Assembly (NCBI RefSeq): GCF_932294415.1
Contig: NC_065539.1
Coordinates: forward strand, 47,716,501 to 47,780,500
Length of the DNA: 64,000 bases
Reading direction: 5' to 3'
From: Quercus robur
Taxonomy: Eukaryota > Streptophyta > Magnoliopsida > Fagales > Fagaceae
Shown: positions 17,560 through 52,587 of the stretch, one piece after another
Layout: every line of letters starts with the position of its first letter
Position numbering within the stretch: position 1 is the stretch's first letter
Notes under the pieces: model-generated
The model's database searches: none
What the model saw: the letters and a program-made list of their open reading frames with translations, nothing else
What the model was told of the DNA's origin: nothing
Made by a program: the position numbers and the translations under genes

Positions 17560-18018
17560 TTTTGGTGCCTCTGCTGGGGAGTCAAGCAGCTAAGGAAGGA
17601 GAAACCATGCCTCCCAAGTCAAAAAACCAACATATGTCCCACACCATCGCTCCATCTTAAAGGGCAGCCGCTGATGCTTCCTCTTTGAGGGAAGTACGTC
17701 TTGATGAGGAGGTTGAACAAGCCCCTCGGCAAATGAAGGAATTATTTGAAATGATGCAAGGCATGTAATGGAACCAGGACAACCTTACTCAGGCTATCTA
17801 GTGCATTGAAGAATCAAACAAGGCTCGCGATAAGGAAAATCCACGGCGAGAGGAGCTCACACTCGAAAAAGGTCAAAATGAAAAGGTGGCGAATAATAGC
17901 AAAAAAAACTAGGTAGGACAAAGCCAATGATGCTCTTGGTGCTAATAATGATTCTCAATATGTCACACTTGCCAACATAGCAAAGCTCATTGAGAGGGAA
18001 CAAGCGAAAATCTCCAAA

Positions 18019-18924
18019 GTGTCAAAGCAATTTGTTCGCCAACCTCCTTACCCGTCTGAGCTATTGCGCAAACCATATCCTCAAAATTATGACGTTCCCA
18101 CATTCTCACTCTATGATGGACGACGAGGAAATGCTCTTGAGCATGTAAGCAAGTTCATAGATACTATGGGCCCATACACTAGTGATTCAGAGTTATGCCT
18201 TTGCGAATTTTTCAAGTCGCTTTCTGACAAGGCTTATTTATGGTACATCACGATCCCAACCGGATCGATCAAGTTGTGGGAGGACATGGTGGAATGCTTC
18301 TGTGGGAAGTATTACCAAGAGCAAGAGGATGTTACATTGATTGGGTTGCACAACACTAAGCAAAGGACCGACGAAGATTTACTTGATTACATACGGCAAT
18401 TCCGAGATATAGCCCTCAAATGCCATGTGAAGTACGAGGAGCATGAATTGGTTGAAATTTGCATTGATAATATGTTTTCTGAGTACAAAATTCACCTTGA
18501 GAATTTTAAGATCAAGCAATTTGCTTCGCTACTCCGAAAGGCCTGCAAAACCATAACATCTTGGAAGACAAACGAGAGAGCATGGAAAACAAGTGAGTGG
18601 TCAAAGACTGATAAGGGGAATGCTCCCCAAGCGCTTTTGGTGGCTACCAATGAGCCCGCTAGCAAGAAGAAGCGCGAGAAAGGCAAGGCAATTGAAGAAT
18701 ATCTGCCCATATCTTGCATGTCAAAGGAGTTGAGTGTCATCCTTGATCGGTGGATCATGGACAAAGTGATAAAACTGTACAAGATTGATAAAGAGCCAAC
18801 CAAGGAAGACAAGAAACATTCACGTTTTGTCCCTACCATAGATATGTTCATCACCCAACTATGGAATGTCACTACATACGAAGGTTGTTTCATGAGAAAT
18901 TGGCAGACGGCACTCTCGAAGTAG
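18019..18924 (+). pseudogene. gag-like region of the Ty3/gypsy fossil
   Basis: The translated stretch resembles the retrotransposon gag domain (Retrotrans_gag). It has a PTFSLYDGRRG-like entry, a LSDKAYLWY motif and a LLDYIRQFRD motif in the usual order. This is a part of a dead element, treated as a fossil. Confidence 0.8.
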
Positions 18925-20046
18925 GCCGTAGCACTCAAGGTGTACAAAGAAATCCTTTGCCTCAGCAAGATAGGGGAAAGGGGATGATCGTTGTGGTCAG
19001 ACATGCTGGCGACGAAGAAGAGAATCCCATGATATCTGCCACACTTACTCCAGTCGCTAATAAGACATTGCAAAGAAGTCCCGCGTTTCATTCATTGTTC
19101 AACCAATTGGGATTAACCCCCGAGGATAGAACAGTAGCGACAGAAGCCATAGTTGGCATTGCATCCTCATCTGAATCCCATTGTTTTACAGCAGAAGTTT
19201 ACGCGATTCAAGCCTTTCTAGAGATGACCAACGCGATCACCTTTACTGATGAAGACATGGAAGTCCAATACATCGATCACAAGAGGCCATTATATGTCTC
19301 AGCAATGATAAATGAAGTTCATGTGAGGAGAGCCCTCGTGAACATCGACTCATCCCTCAATGTTACTCCATTAAGTACTCTTGTTGCAGCAGTCATTTCC
19401 CGGAGAAAAATACAAGGATTGCCAATGGAGATTATTGGATTCGGAAGAGGATGCGAACATACCATTGGACACATTCAGTTAGTACTAAAGGTCGAACCAC
19501 TCATGGGGCTCACCAGGTTCCATGCTCTTGTTCTTCTGTGTCCTACCATGTGTCATTAGGAAGGTCATGGCTGCACAAGCACGAGCTTATATCGTCTACC
19601 TATCATCAATGAGTAAAGGGACGCTTAAACGGAAAATCGATTCATATCCCAGCCAGTTTTACTCTTTTTGACCAATCAGAGGCTCATTATCTAGAAGCGG
19701 CCTTTTATAATCAATTGACCATAAGTGAAGAGGACGCAATTGCGAAGCCCTTAAGCACCCCTTTGCCTAGTTGGGAGGATATTAAAGGAGGGTCTGAAGT
19801 GGACTTGCAAGATCTCCTTAAAAGGAGGAAGAAATGCAAAGAGTGAAGGGAGACGACCCATGATGCCCCAAGATGTGAGAAGATTCAACTGCCTGATGGG
19901 CGCACTAGTTATTGCTTGTGAAGGCATGCAGGGCCTGAATGTGCCAAGCAAGAAGGCCCCGAACTGACATAGGGGGTTGTCCTTCCTCCTGTTGTCTGTT
20001 AGAAGAAACATTTGATCCAACTAAAAAAGAAGCGGTATCGCAATAA

Positions 20047-27726: not shown

Positions 27727-27825
27727 AAGAGTCGACGAACACAAACTTATTATAATAATTCTCGTTTTCCTTCTTTTTCTTATCTAACACTGTCGCTTCC
27801 TTGAAAACCCTGATTCTGATTCGTC

Positions 27826-29037
27826 ATGGTAATTCTTGAGGACTGCGATGCTTATTTGGAAGATATCAATGAACTTGATGATGATGAACAACAACAACAA
27901 AACTCAAACAACAATTGCGTCTATAACGTCGATGAATCTCTAACTCTTTCCAATTTCTACGTAAAAGGGTTCAAAGATATTACATCCAAAGTCGAAAACC
28001 TCTTCTCTCTTGGATTAGAATTGACAATGGATAATGACCCAGATGCTCAATACCGATTTACAGTGGCCTCTAACAACTTGTTGCTCGAGATTGATAGCCA
28101 AGTCTTTAACCTCTACAATCTTATTCGCGACAAGTATTGCAAGAAATTCCCAGAACTCGAATCTGTAATTCAAGAACCTATCGAATACGCTCAAGTTGTT
28201 AAAAAGATTGGTAACGAAATAGATATCACTGTAATCGATGGCTTAAACTTAGCCCCAGCTATTCTAATGGTAGTTTCTATAACAGCATCAACAACTAGTG
28301 GAAAACCACTTTCGGAACAAGATTTAGCAGACACAATACATGCATGTGATTACGTTCTTGCTCTTGATTCGTCGAAAAAAAGAGTGTTGGACTTGTTAGA
28401 GGCTAGAATGAGATATATTGCACCGAATCTTTCAGCCATTGTTGGTGTCACTGTTGCGGCGAAGCTTATAGTTGCTGTTGGTGGTCTTTCATCACTGGCA
28501 TTTACACCTTCTTGTAATGTTAAGCTTGTTGGTGCTGTTAAAAAAGCAAACATAGGATTCTCAAATGTGAAAACATGTCTGTTAGGTTATCTTGAGGAAA
28601 CTGAGATTTATAGGAGCTTGCGGCCTTCATTGAAGAGGTGCATTGGTGGAATTTTACCTAATAAAGCTGTATTAGCAGCTCGTATGGATTTAACTAAAGG
28701 AGATCCAACGGGGAAGTGGGGAAGGGACACGTTGGATACGATACGTGAGACGATTGAGAAGTTGCAAGAGCCTCCTCCTGCTGCAAGACTAGCCAAACCA
28801 CTCCCAGTTCCTGTTCTTGATTATAGTTCTAAAAAGAAGAAAAGGGGTGGCCAACGACAAAGAAATTCAAAGAAACGTTATGGGATAACCGAGACTAGAA
28901 AGTTGGCTAATAGGGTGCAGTTTGGAGTACCTGAGGAGAGTTATTTAGGTGCTGGATATGGCAAGGGATATGGGATTCTTGGCCAGGTTGGTTTGAAGGT
29001 TCAGAGAAAGCTTCCAGCAAGGAATTGGGTTTGTTAA
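27826..29037 (+). CDS. Intronless PRP31-like U4/U6 snRNP protein
   Basis: PRP31 bridges U4 and U6 snRNPs with U5 in the tri-snRNP and is needed for spliceosome assembly in the nucleus. This frame (403 aa, uninterrupted) shows the family's order: acidic N-terminus, KFPELESVIQEPIEY, VVKKIGNEID (about 125), the Nop domain with APNLSAIVGVTVAAKLI (about 205), GYLEETEIY, ARMDLTKGDPTGKWGRD (about 285), LQEPPPAARLAKPLPVPV, a basic stretch, and RYGITETRKLANRVQFGVPE (about 350). It stops soon after GYGKGYGILGQ, so about 80 C-terminal residues found in typical PRP31 (about 485 aa) are absent, and the N-terminus is diverged. An intronless, shortened, diverged copy fits a retroposed paralogue still under constraint. 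However, I cannot say how many introns the parent has. The start is the first ATG after the TATA box. Confidence 0.85.
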   Translation: MVILEDCDAYLEDINELDDDEQQQQNSNNNCVYNVDESLTLSNFYVKGFKDITSKVENLFSLGLELTMDNDPDAQYRFTVASNNLLLEIDSQVFNLYNLIRDKYCKKFPELESVIQEPIEYAQVVKKIGNEIDITVIDGLNLAPAILMVVSITASTTSGKPLSEQDLADTIHACDYVLALDSSKKRVLDLLEARMRYIAPNLSAIVGVTVAAKLIVAVGGLSSLAFTPSCNVKLVGAVKKANIGFSNVKTCLLGYLEETEIYRSLRPSLKRCIGGILPNKAVLAARMDLTKGDPTGKWGRDTLDTIRETIEKLQEPPPAARLAKPLPVPVLDYSSKKKKRGGQRQRNSKKRYGITETRKLANRVQFGVPEESYLGAGYGKGYGILGQVGLKVQRKLPARNWVC

Positions 29038-44620: not shown

Positions 44621-46334
44621 AGAAAGCTCCAGATCTGGAGATGTCATGTCAAAGAGAAAAGGTTAATAAAGATAGGAGATATTAATTCAGCAAAAAAAGA
44701 TAGGGGATATTAGATATAAATATAAATTAGTAAATTGATAAATTGTTTTGATTTCTGTTATCGACAAGAAAAAATGGTACCAAAAAGGGCATGGGCCCAT
44801 GTGTATATGCCATCATTTGGTCCCATATCAACATCCCCTATTTATCTCATTACATATAAAACCTTACTCTTATTTTTTTATTTTTTCCTAAAAGCATATG
44901 AACCTCTAGTTGAATTTTTTTTTTTTTTTTAATTTTAGCATAAGAACATAATTTTTTTTTTCATTTTATTTTACATATTTACTTATCAAAACACTTTATA
45001 TTATATTATATATTTTATACTGCATTTCATTAAAATATCAAATTTTATTGATTTCTTAAAATTATTTCTCTTTATTCACGTATAATTACCACCACCCAAT
45101 CTTTTCATTAATTATTGAAATACGTAAATAAAAAATAAAAAAACTAAATGCAAAATGAATAGTGATAATGATAGTGTAAATATACGTAATTATTATAAAA
45201 ATAATATATTTTATTATAACTTTACATGGCCTGATATAGGTAAAATTTTGACTTGGTTGGTTTAGATATGATCATTTTTTCTATTATACAAGCACTAATA
45301 TAAATATTCCTATTGTTGTATGAGAATCTTATTATAAGATGGGTGTTATATTTATCAAATATATTAGATACATTCTCTCTCCCTCTGTGTTTTGATAACC
45401 CTTTTCACATCATAGGTGTTCAAGTGATGAGTTCATTGATATTGGGCTTGACATAAATTTATATTCTCAAATTTAACATATCACATTATTAGTTATGAGA
45501 TTTTTGAGTGTCTGCTGTGAGTAAAATAGTTTGGCTGAGTTGTTACTTAAAAAAAAAAAAAAAAATTTTGTGTTTATGTAATAAAGAACAGGTTTTTGAA
45601 TAAACGACGGGGTAGAGTAAATTTTGCCTTTTACCATATGGGACAGATGCTACTGAAAACCATGTGGAAGTTGGTGCAGACTGCAGAGAGAGTGTAAAAT
45701 GATTTTAGGTAACGTGATTTTATATCGTCTTCCAAGTTTTATTATAATCAAAAGCAAAACACAGTCAGTTAATAGAGAGTGGTTTCACTATGAATGTGTA
45801 TATATTATTTTTATAATCTCATTGCAAATTCCAAAATTTTAAACATTATAAATCTTCCTCGTATCTAAAGTGGTAATTTTTAAAAGCTCAGTGGGGAGTC
45901 TTTCACCCAAACCAAAAAAGTTGGAAAAAGGAAAAAGGAAAAAGGAAATATAGGATATGTTTGGCTCTATCAAAAAAGCATATTTTGTATACGTTTCAGT
46001 TTGTTGTGAGACTCACCATTAAAAAACTTGTTTGGCTTTATATTTGTATTCAATTTTATTTTCTTGAAAATGAATACAGTGGTATTTTCGAAAAAAAAAA
46101 AAAAAAAAAAATCTGTGAGTCTTACTATCACTGATTTGTCGCATCAAAGAACACTCTTTTTATTTGTTGGTGATTGTCATAAAAAAAAAGTGAAGAGAAA
46201 GACAAAGTAGAAAATGATATCAAACAAAAAGGAAAAGATAGAAACAAAAAATAAGTACAAAATTTAAGTATAGAAAATGAGTACAAAAAATAAAATTAGA
46301 AAATGAATACAAGACACAAACCATAGACCCATAA
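44621..46334. other. AT-rich intergenic DNA
   Basis: No gene seen. It holds several A and T runs (44917-44931, 45548-45565, 46090-46110) and an AAAAAGG-like short array at about 45917-45945. Confidence 0.5.
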
Positions 46335-46520
46335 GAGTATTAGCACCAGTACATGTAAAATTTATTATCTATTTTAGTATAAGAACTTACTTTTTCTATT
46401 TTACAATACCACTTTTACAAAACACTCATATCAGATTATCTATTATACTTATATTTTTATTTTAATAATCATTTTTAATCATTTATTATTGTTATTTTTA
46501 CCTTTGCAAGCTCTTATACG

Positions 46521-47321
46521 GGGTTTTTTTTAAAAATAACTATAAAACACATACTATATTATAAGTTAGACAACATTTCAAACTTATTGCATTTCTAACA
46601 ACTCGAGTCCGGTGGACTCGATTTACCCAGAAATATGACGTGGACAAAGTAGGAAATCGAGTTTACTGAACTCGATTTCTATACATAGAAATCGAGTTTA
46701 ATAAACTCAATTTCTGTGTACAAAAACCAAGTTTAACAAACTTGGTTTCTATACATAGAAACCGAGTTTATTAAAATCGATTTCTATGTATAGAAACCCA
46801 TTTCAATAAAACTGAGATGCCTGCTCAAAAAATCTCAACTCAACATTACACCCAACAAAAAAAAAAAAAAAAAAGAACATAAGACCCAGAAAACAAGACA
46901 CAACCCAAAAACCACATAGAAGATCAAATGAGAAAATGATACCGGTTGTTGGGACGGCGACGGCGACTAAACTAATATTAAAAAAAAAAAAAATTCTCTC
47001 TCCCTCTCTTCAGTCTTTAGTCAGCTCTAAGCTGAGCTGAACTCAACACCCAACTGGCGCGACAGCCGGCTTGACCTTAGGCCTTCCTCTCCCTCTCGGC
47101 GAGCCGCCAGTTGGAGCCACAGCAGGAGCCGAAGAAGCCGCAGTCTTAGCCTTCTTAGGAGGACGGCCACGTGGCCTTCCAGAGCCAGACGACGCCGCCG
47201 CTTTCTTCGTAGGCGAAGGCACTGGAGCAAAAGGGTCTCTGGGCTTAGGCGGACGGCCTCTGGGCCTAAGCGGAGACGCCACGGCACCAGGCCTAAACTA
47301 ATATTTTCTGGGTCTTATGTT

Positions 47322-47356
<35 letters not shown>

Positions 47357-47707
47357 TTGTTGTTGGGTGTAATGTTGAGTTGAGATTTTTTTAGCAGAAA
47401 TGATGAGCATTCTCAGTATTATTGAAATCGGTTTCTATACATAGAAATCGATTTTAATAAACTCGGTTTCTATGTGTAGAAACCGAGTTTGTTAAACTTT
47501 GTTTCTGTACACAGAAATTGAGTTTATTAAACTCGATTTCTATGTATAGAAATCGAATTCAGTAAACTCGATTTCCTACTTTGTCCACGTCACATTTCTG
47601 GGTAAATCGAGTCCACCAGACTCGAATTGTTAGAAATGCAATAAGTTTGAAATGTTGTCTAACTTATAATATAGTATGTGTTTTATAATTATTTTTTTTA
47701 AAAACCC
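46521..47707. mobile_element. Pack-MULE with about 370-400 bp terminal inverted repeats
   Basis: TIRs at 46521-46893 and 47304-47707 begin GGGTTTTT and are long and similar. The target duplication TCTTATACG is perfect at 9 bases (46512-46520 and 47708-47716), diagnostic of Mutator-like elements. The TIRs are made largely of alternating short palindromes of the type TCGATTTCTATACATAGAAA. No transposase is present. The 410-bp centre carries a GC-rich piece of a host HMG-Y/HMGA gene. Gene-piece capture between long TIRs defines a Pack-MULE. Confidence 0.85.
47043..47303 (-). pseudogene. Captured HMG-Y/HMGA AT-hook fragment inside the Pack-MULE
   Basis: The minus frame from the Met codon ending at 47282 encodes 79 residues with three AT-hooks: LRPRGRPPKPR, GRPRGRPPKKAK and SPRGRGRPKVK. 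AT-hooks bind the minor groove of AT-rich DNA. Order, spacing and the terminal KVKPAVAP match the C-terminal part of plant HMG-Y-related (HMGA) proteins. The N-terminal linker-histone-like domain of that family is absent, so this is a fragment. GC content is far above the flanks. The frame is intact, and a fused or new short AT-hook peptide could be made if transcribed; whether it is transcribed is unknown. Confidence 0.8.
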
Positions 47708-47802
47708 TCTTATACGCGTCTATTTTATAATATATTGTGTAAATTTTTATATTTTTTATATTTTACACTTTTTATATTTTACACCTGCTGAAGCAATTGC
47801 TC

Positions 47803-49138
47803 TAATGTTGTTGTTATGAGTACTAGTTGTTCGTTAAAATGCCCACAACGATGGCTTGAATTCGTTGCTAAAAGCTCAGCTCAAGTCTCCTGCTCTGAAA
47901 TTTGATTCGCCGGTGTCACGGTGTCTGTCGCTTAGTCCCCAAGTCACTACACCTCCTGCCATACCACTGACCCCTCCTTATCCACTCCAAGTGGGCACCA
48001 TTCACAGGTTATGATGATACATGCATATCCTTGAGTGATTTTATGATTTTATCCCCATATTTAACATAAATTAAGTTTCAAATTTTTTTGGGATAATATT
48101 AAATTTTTTAATAGAAGTTGTTTGGTAATTACAATAGGACTAGTTGATATGAATTTTTGTCGAATTAAGTTAAAATTTCTGGCCGTGAAATCCACTTATT
48201 TAAACACTAGTCTCATCACACATGCATGTGCGGTAAGACTCTTTTTTATTTTTTATTTTATGTTTAGTGTCATAATGTTTAAAAATGATATAGAAATAGT
48301 GCCCTAATTCTTAGAATATTTTCAATAAAGAAAAAAGTCTAAAACTTACGATTTTTTTTTTTTAAAGTAGTAAATTACTCTTTCAACTAGTTTGTATTTT
48401 TAAATTTAAAATGATTTAAATAAAAGATAGAAGTATTTTAGAAAATTTAAGAATTTGTGTGAGAATATTTTAGTACACAAAATGATGAAACCCAAACAGA
48501 GAATCTTGTTATTAGTAGTATAAATTATTTAATCAACTTAAAAAATATAAGTATTTAAGAAGAAATTTTACACAAATACACGTATATATACTTATATTAT
48601 GTTAGAGTAAGATTTATATTTAAAGAAAAAAAAAGTACATGCCTCCTACTATTTAATAACTAAAAGTTTTACCAAATAAGCTAGTGAAACCACTTATTTG
48701 AACATGTTTATAATAATTTTTACCTATCAGGAAACCAATATCTAAAAAGTTTTAGATGAAAGAAATAAAAACTTTAATCCAATCTTCTAATCATTATAGT
48801 AAATTGACGATATACCAACTTTTAATTTCTAACCTCTAATCATAGTTTGACCTTAATCCCATCTTCTAATCATCAAATAGTAAATTGACTAAATTCTCAC
48901 TTAGTATAATAATATTTAAAAAATAAAAAAATAAAAGAAAAATAAAAAAGAATAAAGGGTGATTCTCACACCTATTCCTTTCTTTAATAACAAAGAATCA
49001 AAGATGGCTGCCCTCTCTTATTAAAGATTGAGACAAAAGTAACCCAAAAAAGAGAGCCACCCATCTTCCCAAATCAGGAAACTACGGTTCCTTCATTGTC
49101 TTTGAGCCATTCTCTCTGTAAATTTCTCTACTTTTCAC
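47803..49138 (+). other. Upstream region of the MIEL1-like gene
   Basis: A GC-richer stretch at about 47866-48010 is open in one plus frame (LLKAQLKSPALKFDSP, SLSPQVTTPPAIPLTPP) and ends at AGG|TT. It could be an exon remnant, but I do not recognise it. The rest is AT-rich; the promoter and leader of the downstream gene lie in the last few hundred bases (CT-rich near 49100-49130). Confidence 0.4.
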
Positions 49139-52100
49139 ATGGAAGGCTCAGCAAATGAACGTCTTAGTTTTGGGAAGATGGGCTACGGGTACACACAAAC
49201 CAGCTCTATTTCCCTTATCTCAACTCACTGCGTTCAGTTTTTGATGTTATTTCCTAACTGGGTTTCTGTTTTTGTTTTGTTTTGTTTTGTTCCTCTTAAG
49301 GTGCAAGCATTATAGAAGGAGGTGCATGATTAGAGCTCCTTGTTGCAACGAGATCTACGATTGTCGCCATTGTCACAATGAGGCCACGGTATATGCTGAT
49401 GCATTATTAGTTTATTACTACACGCATACGCATACACAAAGACACAGCTTTTTGGGACTTTTTATCTTGTTTTAGATTAATATATTTGCCTTTTGTGACC
49501 TCTATTGATCTGGGTCTTTCTTAATTTTCATGCATGTTTGGTTTATTAGAACATGTTGGGGAACCCAGTTGATCGGCATGAACTCGTTAGATACGATGTT
49601 AAACAAGTACGACAATTCTGCTTTATCTGTTTGTTTCTTTTTCTTTTTTCTTTTAAAAAGAAACAATTTTTATGATTAATTTACACTGTTGTGAATTGCT
49701 AATGATGCTGTTGTTGTTGTTGTTTAAGGTTGTTTGTTCAGTTTGTGACACAGAGCAGCCGGTAAGTGTTTTGTGTGTGTGTGTGTGTGTAAGGTGATGT
49801 AAAGCTAAAAGCTTTCTTGTTCTGATTTTCTGTTATGTATTAATTGGTTTAGTTCATATTCTCTTATTGTTCCAGGTTGCTAAAGTTTGTACCAACTGTG
49901 GTGTAAATATGGGGGAATATTTTTGCGAAGTCTGCAAATTCTATGATGATGATGTAATTACACTATCTCAGATTCAACTATTTAAATGGAAAATCCAAGA
50001 AATATTTAATAAATTTTCTTTTTTTGGTGTTTTTGTTTTACCTATCAAAAAAAACTTTTTTGTCCAGATAATCTAGAATGAGATTTAATATCCTTGTTTG
50101 TTTACTTGTTCTTTTTATTGATGCAAACTGTTGTTTTAACTAATCTCAGACTGAGAAAGCGCAGTTTCATTGTGATGATTGTGGGATATGCAGGTTAGTA
50201 AGCATAGTATGATTAGTGTCTCTTTGTTTTTTTATATTTTCACTTATCATTGAATTGGTGATATCAAAGATGTACTGATCTAAATTCTGTTCTTTCTATC
50301 AGAGTTGGTGGTCGCGAGAACTTCTTTCATTGCAAAAAGTGTGGTATGCACTTCCTCCCCAGTAACTAGAAATTTGTCATTATGATTGGTTTTGTTACTT
50401 TAGTTGCACAAAGCAGAAGCAGTACGTCACTTTTTCTTCTTCTTTTTGTTTGTCTTTCTGTTAAACTTAAGTTATTATTTTTGTGTTTTGTTTTGCTTGT
50501 CCATTCATTTTTACGTGGATGCTTATCAGTTTTAATCATATTTTAATTTCCAGTGAATGTAGATAACCCAGCAAGTGCAACCCAGAGTAATACAATAAGA
50601 TTGGAGGGTTCTGGTTCCTTTTTTTGTTTAAAATAAGAAATTTAGGTGAAATGGGATGTTGCTGATTGATCCATAAATTGGGTGTCCATGGTGATATTCT
50701 TTGACTTTGCAGAATTTATCAGGCATTTTATCACCCATCTGGTCTTGCTTGAAGGAAATGTAGTTATCCTGATTGCCTTGCAAAGTTGCAATAGGAAAAG
50801 CCTTTGAATGCTTTACAATATAATATGCTGTCAAAGTTCTGATGGATCTTCTAGAGTATTATACATGAGGAAGAACTATAATTTATGATCGATCTTCTTT
50901 ACAAATGTCTAAATTTATGTTTCATCTTCAAGGGTTGGGAATATGTAAGATGTTAAAAACCTTAAGACAGGAAAAAATAGTTAAGATGTCAAAAGAATGA
51001 ATGTGTAACCAGTTCTTTTGGAGCATATTTCCCAGAAGCATAAGCCCTGTTTTATATTTTCTAATATTGAACATAAGTTTAAAAGTTTTACCTGTTTATA
51101 TTTATATGCTCTCATATAAGGGCCTTTTGCTATTGAAAGTTCCTATATTTCTGATGCCACATATATTATGGTTTCATAACTCAGTGCTTGCATGTTGGAT
51201 GTGCTCTCGTATAAAATCTTCGGCACTATGTATTTTTCTATATTGTCTTTTGTCATGTTCAAAATTGACATGCAGTTTTTCCTCCTGATTGGAGTTGACT
51301 ATGTGAGCCCCTTTTCCCAAAGAATTTGAGTATGCTCCATGAGTTATACATGCATAAATATGGTTATTTTCCCCTCTTTCTTCCCTTTTCTTTTGAATTA
51401 TATATTTTCTAATTAGAATATTTACTCCACTAATAGGGTCTTGCTATTCGGTTAGTCTGCGTGATAACCATTTGTGTGTGGAGAACTCCATGCGGCACCA
51501 TTGTCCAATATGCTATGAGGTTTGCTTCCTGTGTGCTTCATTTGTGTATTGAAATAGAATTGCTTGATGTTCTAACATATAATGGTATTTTTGTAGTATC
51601 TTTTTGACTCACTTAAGGACACAATTGTAATGAAATGTGGGCACACAATGCATTGCGAATGTTATGGAGAGATGGTAAAGCGTGACAAGTAAGCAACCTT
51701 TACTTCTTATTGCTTTAGTGTTATTTGTTGACTGGGCCAAACATTTATGTTTTTTAAGTTCTAACTTGATTTTGTCATGCCGCACAGATTCTGCTGTCCC
51801 ATATGCTCAAAGTCAGTAATAGACATGTCTAGAATCTGGAAGAGAATAGATGAGGAGGTAGACTTATTCAATTTAGCTATTCTTGCAGATACAGTATTTG
51901 ATCTGTGTATATTTATGAAGATTCAGTGGCATGTTGGTTGTGCTTCCATATAGCAATTATCTTGCGTAAACAGAAATTTCACTCCAATCTGTTATTATTA
52001 TGTTATCAGATAGAAGCAACTGCCATGCCTGAGGATTACCGTCACAAGAAGGTGCTTACTTATCATCCTTGTTCTTATCTAATAATTTGGTGCTACATTT

Positions 52101-52587
52101 CCTTGTTGCCCATATTTCAAAAATTCATGAATTCTATAAATGCTCATGCAGAGACCTTAAGCACCTTCTCTGGCTAGATTATAATTGTATTTGGGTTATG
52201 TATTGCTTGTGGTTTGCATTCATCTGGCAAATATATTTGCATGCACAAACACTACGCATTCCTAAAGAATATAGAAAAAGAAAGGTGGAAGGAAGGTGTA
52301 ATAACTGAAAAGGCCACCCCTTGTTTTTCAATGTCCAAAACTTTGAAAACTTAGCAAGGAGAAGGCACACCCGTATCCCTATCTATCACACTTATAGAAC
52401 TCTTACTACCTCTGAGCAAACTTTGCTGGAAAACACTAAGAAGCAAGAGTATTTTTTGCAGGTCTGGATACTGTGTAATGATTGCAATGATACAACTGAA
52501 GTTTACTTTCACATAATTGGGCAGAAATGCAGCCATTGCGAGTCATATAATACCCGTACAATTTCCCCTCCAGTTCTTCCTCAATGA
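49139..52587 (+). CDS. MIEL1: CHY/CTCHY/RING-H2 E3 ubiquitin ligase, MIEL1 type
   Basis: RCHY1-type ligases attach ubiquitin to target proteins; Arabidopsis MIEL1 promotes turnover of MYB factors such as MYB30 and MYB96. Exons: 49139-49188, 49301-49388, 49550-49606, 49729-49761, 49876-49953, 50150-50193, 50303-50343, 51437-51519, 51597-51688, 51788-51857, 52010-52051, 52462-52587. They total 804 nt, 267 aa, the length I recall for MIEL1. Visible: CHY zinc finger ([25 protein letters not shown]; about 15-90), CTCHY finger ([20 protein letters not shown]; about 92-150), RING-H2 (CPICYE ... [12 protein letters not shown] ... CCPIC; about 153-198), and a C-terminal zinc ribbon (CNDCN ... CSHC; about 230-250). 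All ligands are present, so it should be active. Confidence 0.94.

Follow-up and report, generated by a model that had tools for sequence, protein, structure and literature searches.

A Pack-MULE carrying the AT-hook end of a GH1-HMGA gene in Quercus robur

A short open frame with AT-hook motifs lies between two long inverted repeats in a stretch of 64,000 nucleotides of Quercus robur DNA (the window). Where did this coding piece come from, by which route did it enter the element that now carries it, and is it likely to be read as a peptide?

Structure and origin of the captured fragment

Positions 46521-47707 of the window are a non-autonomous Mutator-like element with long terminal inverted repeats (TIRs). 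Its bounds are exact: the left end, GGGTTTTTTTTAAAAATAAC, starts at 46521, and the right end, ...AAAAACCC, finishes at 47707 and is a near complement of the left one. The long inverted ends announced by the original prediction are indeed present, with arms at 46521-46817 and 47411-47707 that are 95% complementary over 297 nt without gaps, and an extra inverted stretch follows inward (46854-46893 and 47304-47343, 95%). The perfect 9-bp target site duplication (TSD) was also found (9/9), and as a C precedes TCTTATACG on both sides, it can be read shifted by one base as well. In related elements, the matching left arm reaches element position 447 (window 46967). We list the features below in window coordinates.

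46512..46520, no strand: left copy of the TSD, TCTTATACG, 9 bp, matching the right copy perfectly
46521..46893, plus strand: left TIR, with the ungapped core 46521-46817 and 35-nt tandem palindromic units, which the arms hold
46965..47291, minus strand: captured HMGA gene fragment, coding end and 78 nt of 3' UTR (blastn against the C3 stretch L004)
46967..46979, plus strand: 13-nt repeat CTAAACTAATATT, within the 3' UTR portion of the cargo (repeat comparison)
47043..47297, minus strand: open frame of 84 codons and a stop, with no ATG and with an in-frame TAG at 47298-47300 (frame reading)
47076..47096, minus strand: shortened AT-hook RGRGRPK, parent hook 4 minus one proline codon (comparison with the parent)
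47154..47177, minus strand: AT-hook RPRGRPPK, parent hook 3 (translation)
47244..47267, minus strand: AT-hook RPRGRPPK, parent hook 2 (translation)
47293..47305, plus strand: the 13-nt repeat again, at the opposite junction (single occurrence in the 10-kb parent stretch)
47304..47707, minus strand: right TIR (inverted-arm comparison)
47708..47716, no strand: right copy of the TSD, TCTTATACG, 9 bp, matching the left copy perfectly

Four frames of at least 40 aa overlap 46400-47850. In the three that were scanned (the fourth has 47 codons and lies at the right edge), there is no transposase and no Pfam family, which bears out the predicted absence of a transposase. The centre is GC-rich, also as predicted, with a GC content of 0.57 in the captured part and 0.64 in its coding portion, against 0.35 for the window.

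Rfam and tRNA scans of the whole window were empty. About 1.6 kb past the element end, the plus strand has a CHY zinc-finger match; CHY zinc-finger and zinc-ribbon frames lie there at 49245-49472 and 52309-52584 (plus strand) and are perhaps exons of one gene. On the same strand, the window also holds an open frame with a retrotransposon gag domain (PF03732) at 17917-18921, overlapped by the open frame 18792-19559, and a single 405-codon open frame matching Nop and Prp31_C at 27820-29034, which may be a splicing-factor gene copy without introns.

The frame 47043-47282 (minus strand) is open, and the first start codon listed for it is a GTG instead of an ATG. Its 79 aa matched no HMGA family in Pfam and no HMGA chain in PDB. 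A whole-genome protein search with the same query (E ≤ 0.001) returned three matches: the window itself, C3:27292064-27292297 (97%) and C38:18233828-18234061 (96%). The HMGA gene that the original prediction had expected as a parent in the same genome is the one on C3. This locus looks like a gene, with an exon 1 and a GT-AG intron, both read by eye, and with an open frame of 173 codons that holds the exon with four AT-hooks. The joined protein matches the linker-histone family PF00538 (E 1.6e-6), and its match to the AT-hook model falls below the cut-off of that model. The parent is a GH1-HMGA gene made up of a linker-histone domain and four AT-hooks, and it is because of this gene, not of a direct family match of the piece, that we assign the cargo to HMGA.

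The cargo runs from just before hook 2 to the stop codon and on into the 3' UTR, and is 92.5% identical to the C3 parent over 332 aligned columns (blastn; element bases 445-771). It was correctly predicted to lack the histone-like domain: the parent has both the GH1 domain and the AT-hooks that define a GH1-HMGA gene, whereas the cargo has no GH1 part and no ATG. Three AT-hooks in one open frame had also been claimed. The frame is open and hooks 2 and 3 are unchanged, but hook 4 is one codon short, reading GRGRPK in the window copy against GRGRPPK in the parent and in the C38 copy.

The C38 match is a second HMGA-carrying element, with breakpoints identical to those of the window copy and a 9-bp duplication of its own, different from that of the window copy and with one mismatch (8/9). 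The two copies are separated by a K2P distance of 0.033 (computed without gap columns), differ from the parent at nine common bases of the coding part and group together in a tree of left arms with a support of 98/95. Given the strong protein match to an HMGA gene, one could take the locus for part of a normal HMGA gene, or for a local pseudogene, whose likeness to TIRs is accidental. We regard this as next to impossible: the TSD is an exact 9 bp, an HMGA-carrying element occurs again on C38 beside another duplication, the parent lies on C3 according to the protein search of the genome, and the TIRs belong to a family with other cargoes.

Related elements, transposase and capture junctions

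With the whole element as query, at least 154 matching pieces were found in the genome. A 30-mer of the TIR occurs 100 times with up to three mismatches, against zero for the reversed-pattern control. Twenty elements were fetched, the window copy counted in, and their TSDs agree at 9/9 positions in 16 of them, at 8/9 in one and at 6/9 in one; the remaining two have no end by the rule used. When different elements were paired with equal freedom of ends, 9/9 was reached in 0 of the 342 pairings and 8/9 in two.

Several relatives carry pieces of other genes. A WD40 gene fragment is found in five of them (L038, L040, L041, L042 and L047), with 94.9-98.3% DNA identity to its parent at C2:64172798-64173022, which lies within 369 open codons and is WD40 by Pfam. 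This cargo, which we take to be LWD/AN11, is a 5' coding fragment, and in L038 its frame stays open into the GC-rich TIR end. The fragment alone had no match in PDB, but the parent protein did. L043 and L046 share another cargo, L048 and L065 another again, and L067 (C39:24778500-24780200), an element with related TIRs, has a fragment of a NAC domain on the minus strand (PF02365, E 4.2e-11). In the left-arm tree, made from 18 of the 20 elements (L054 and L055 left out), L043 and L046 are joined at 99/96, the WD40 group is weak (57/92) and nine of the 15 inner branches are open. The tree agrees with one capture for each cargo, followed by movement.

As for the source of the transposase, 150 of the 1249 candidates from a genome search with PF10551 were scored. 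One of the loci, L058, has a TIR 83% identical to that of the window element, followed by a 678-codon frame of a transposase of the MuDR type, with PF10551, PF03108 and SWIM. L059 has PF10551 and SWIM, and L061 part of PF10551; the frames from L057 and L069, two of the five scanned from such loci, matched no family. The link between L058 and the window element rests on one end, because no opposite end of L058 could be located within the 10 kb that were fetched. By that end, the element appears to be kin to MULE transposase carriers.

The junctions of the cargo keep traces of the capture. At the left one, GGCGAC/TAAACTAATATT stands in the element, GGCGACGG is typical of the arms in relatives with a different cargo, and GAGACTAAAC is the parental sequence; GAC is common to them. 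At the right one, the coding end (GGCACCGGG in the C38 copy, GGCACCAGG in that of the window) precedes a C and CTAAACTAATATT, after which the TIR continues from TTCTGGG. The 10-kb parent stretch has a single CTAAACTAATATT, and each copy has two of these 13-mers, one on either side of the cargo. The donor was therefore probably reused from the same point of the UTR, either through a template jump or in a circular form, in what would be one event inherited by both copies. A fuller scenario, which we put forward as a rather doubtful one, is that the scar records a circular or repeatedly used donor, with slightly more than one lap of the HMGA piece of about 330 bp copied into a break that started at the GC-rich inner end of the TIR. 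By eye, the WD40 pieces and those of L043 and L046 are likewise joined at the GC-rich inner TIR end.

Fate of the captured frame

The original prediction held that the element could yield a short AT-hook peptide, and this is the claim that our data do not support. The reading of a selected peptide, encoded now or in the future, may draw on the fact that the frame is open in both copies and that both of its indels in the window copy comprise whole codons. These indels, however, sit in repeats of GCG and of CCT, in which slips of three bases are to be expected. Moreover, a stop codon cannot arise in the cargo from one C>T or G>A change, so that an open frame is expected anyway. The captured frame has no ATG and a TAG stands in frame five codons upstream; among the ATG-started frames of at least 25 aa within 46301-48000, none covers it.

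Synonymous and non-synonymous changes were compared, as had been suggested for this locus. Between the parent and the window copy we counted 11 synonymous and two non-synonymous changes (ratio 0.07), and between the parent and the C38 copy 10 and three (ratio 0.11), but these ratios include the history of the parent itself and their low values can reflect selection on the parent lineage. Between the two copies, there are five synonymous and three non-synonymous changes (ratio 0.24). These are the eight private substitutions of the copies, all of them C>T or G>A. The probability of at most three non-synonymous changes in eight is 0.03-0.04 if all C>T and G>A changes are equally likely, which would speak for a peptide, but 0.08-0.22 if CpG sites are weighted, and the neutral null then stands. 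Seven of the eight private changes fall in a CpG of the parent or of the sister copy. Two of these seven hit a single CpG, which the parent still has intact, and against the sister copy alone the count is five. Such changes fit the decay of methylated DNA, which would suffice as their cause, and these counts neither show nor exclude selection on the copies. We consider a selected AT-hook peptide very improbable. As it has no start signal, the cargo is most likely not a new protein but an ordinary gene fragment in decay. The supposed peptide is nevertheless a useful negative, as an open frame in a GC-rich capture can stay intact without selection.

A role at the RNA level may also be considered, in which the element gives a hairpin RNA or antisense small RNAs that act on the parent HMGA gene. 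The long inverted arms enclose the cargo, 86 windows of 21 nt of the cargo are identical to the parent, and the internal regions of rice MULEs bear 24-nt small RNAs, according to PMC4858842. The HMGA piece, however, would lie in the loop of such a hairpin and not in its arms, and we see this role as unlikely.

The account that we hold to be very well founded as a whole is that of a Pack-MULE which copied a piece of a host gene and moved with it. About 330 bp of the GH1-HMGA gene (C3:27292052-27292380) would have been copied, most likely while repair or replication was under way within the element, and at least one later move of element and cargo would have produced the copies on C6 (the window) and C38. 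A related autonomous element of the MuDR type would supply, or would once have supplied, the transposase. In its present form, the HMGA piece is probably untranslated and would be decaying as silenced DNA.

Comparison with known systems

The original prediction of a Pack-MULE holds. The element has TIRs, a TSD of about 9 bp, no transposase, a cargo with its parent elsewhere in the genome and kinship with a MULE transposase, and it is a good, ordinary Pack-MULE. Among the listed titles and abstract beginnings of the literature on Pack-MULEs, HMGA, oak (Quercus) and eccDNA, there was no case like an HMGA-carrying element.

Pack-MULEs of rice, maize, tomato and Arabidopsis have TIRs and a short TSD, 7-11 bp being accepted (PMC4858842), and a preference for GC-rich fragments is described in PMC4858842 for rice and in PMC3310237. 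The oak element is like them in its TIRs, its short TSD, its gene fragment with a parent elsewhere and the GC-rich nature of the fragment. It is unlike them in that the cargo is the tail of an HMGA gene, in the GC-rich repeats with which many arms of its family end on the inner side and in the parental 13-mer present at both capture junctions. With regard to the gene itself, plant GH1-HMGA genes have a GH1 domain followed by AT-hooks, as outlined in PMC9635857; the C3 parent is alike, whereas the captured piece has AT-hooks only.

In animals, Pack-TIRs have been explained by a model of fork stalling and template switching (FoSTeST), with multicopy elements whose cargo is joined at short microhomology (PMC8277862). 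The oak element is likewise multicopy, with its cargo joined at short microhomology, but it is a plant MULE whose cargo has one and the same parental 13-mer at either end. PMC3310237 describes the mechanism of gene capture by Pack-MULEs as yet to be understood, and PMC8277862 calls cargo capture perplexing. In the oak family, the breakpoints and the parent are known, relatives carry other cargoes and both copies have the same scar, and therefore models of capture can be compared there at the level of single bases.
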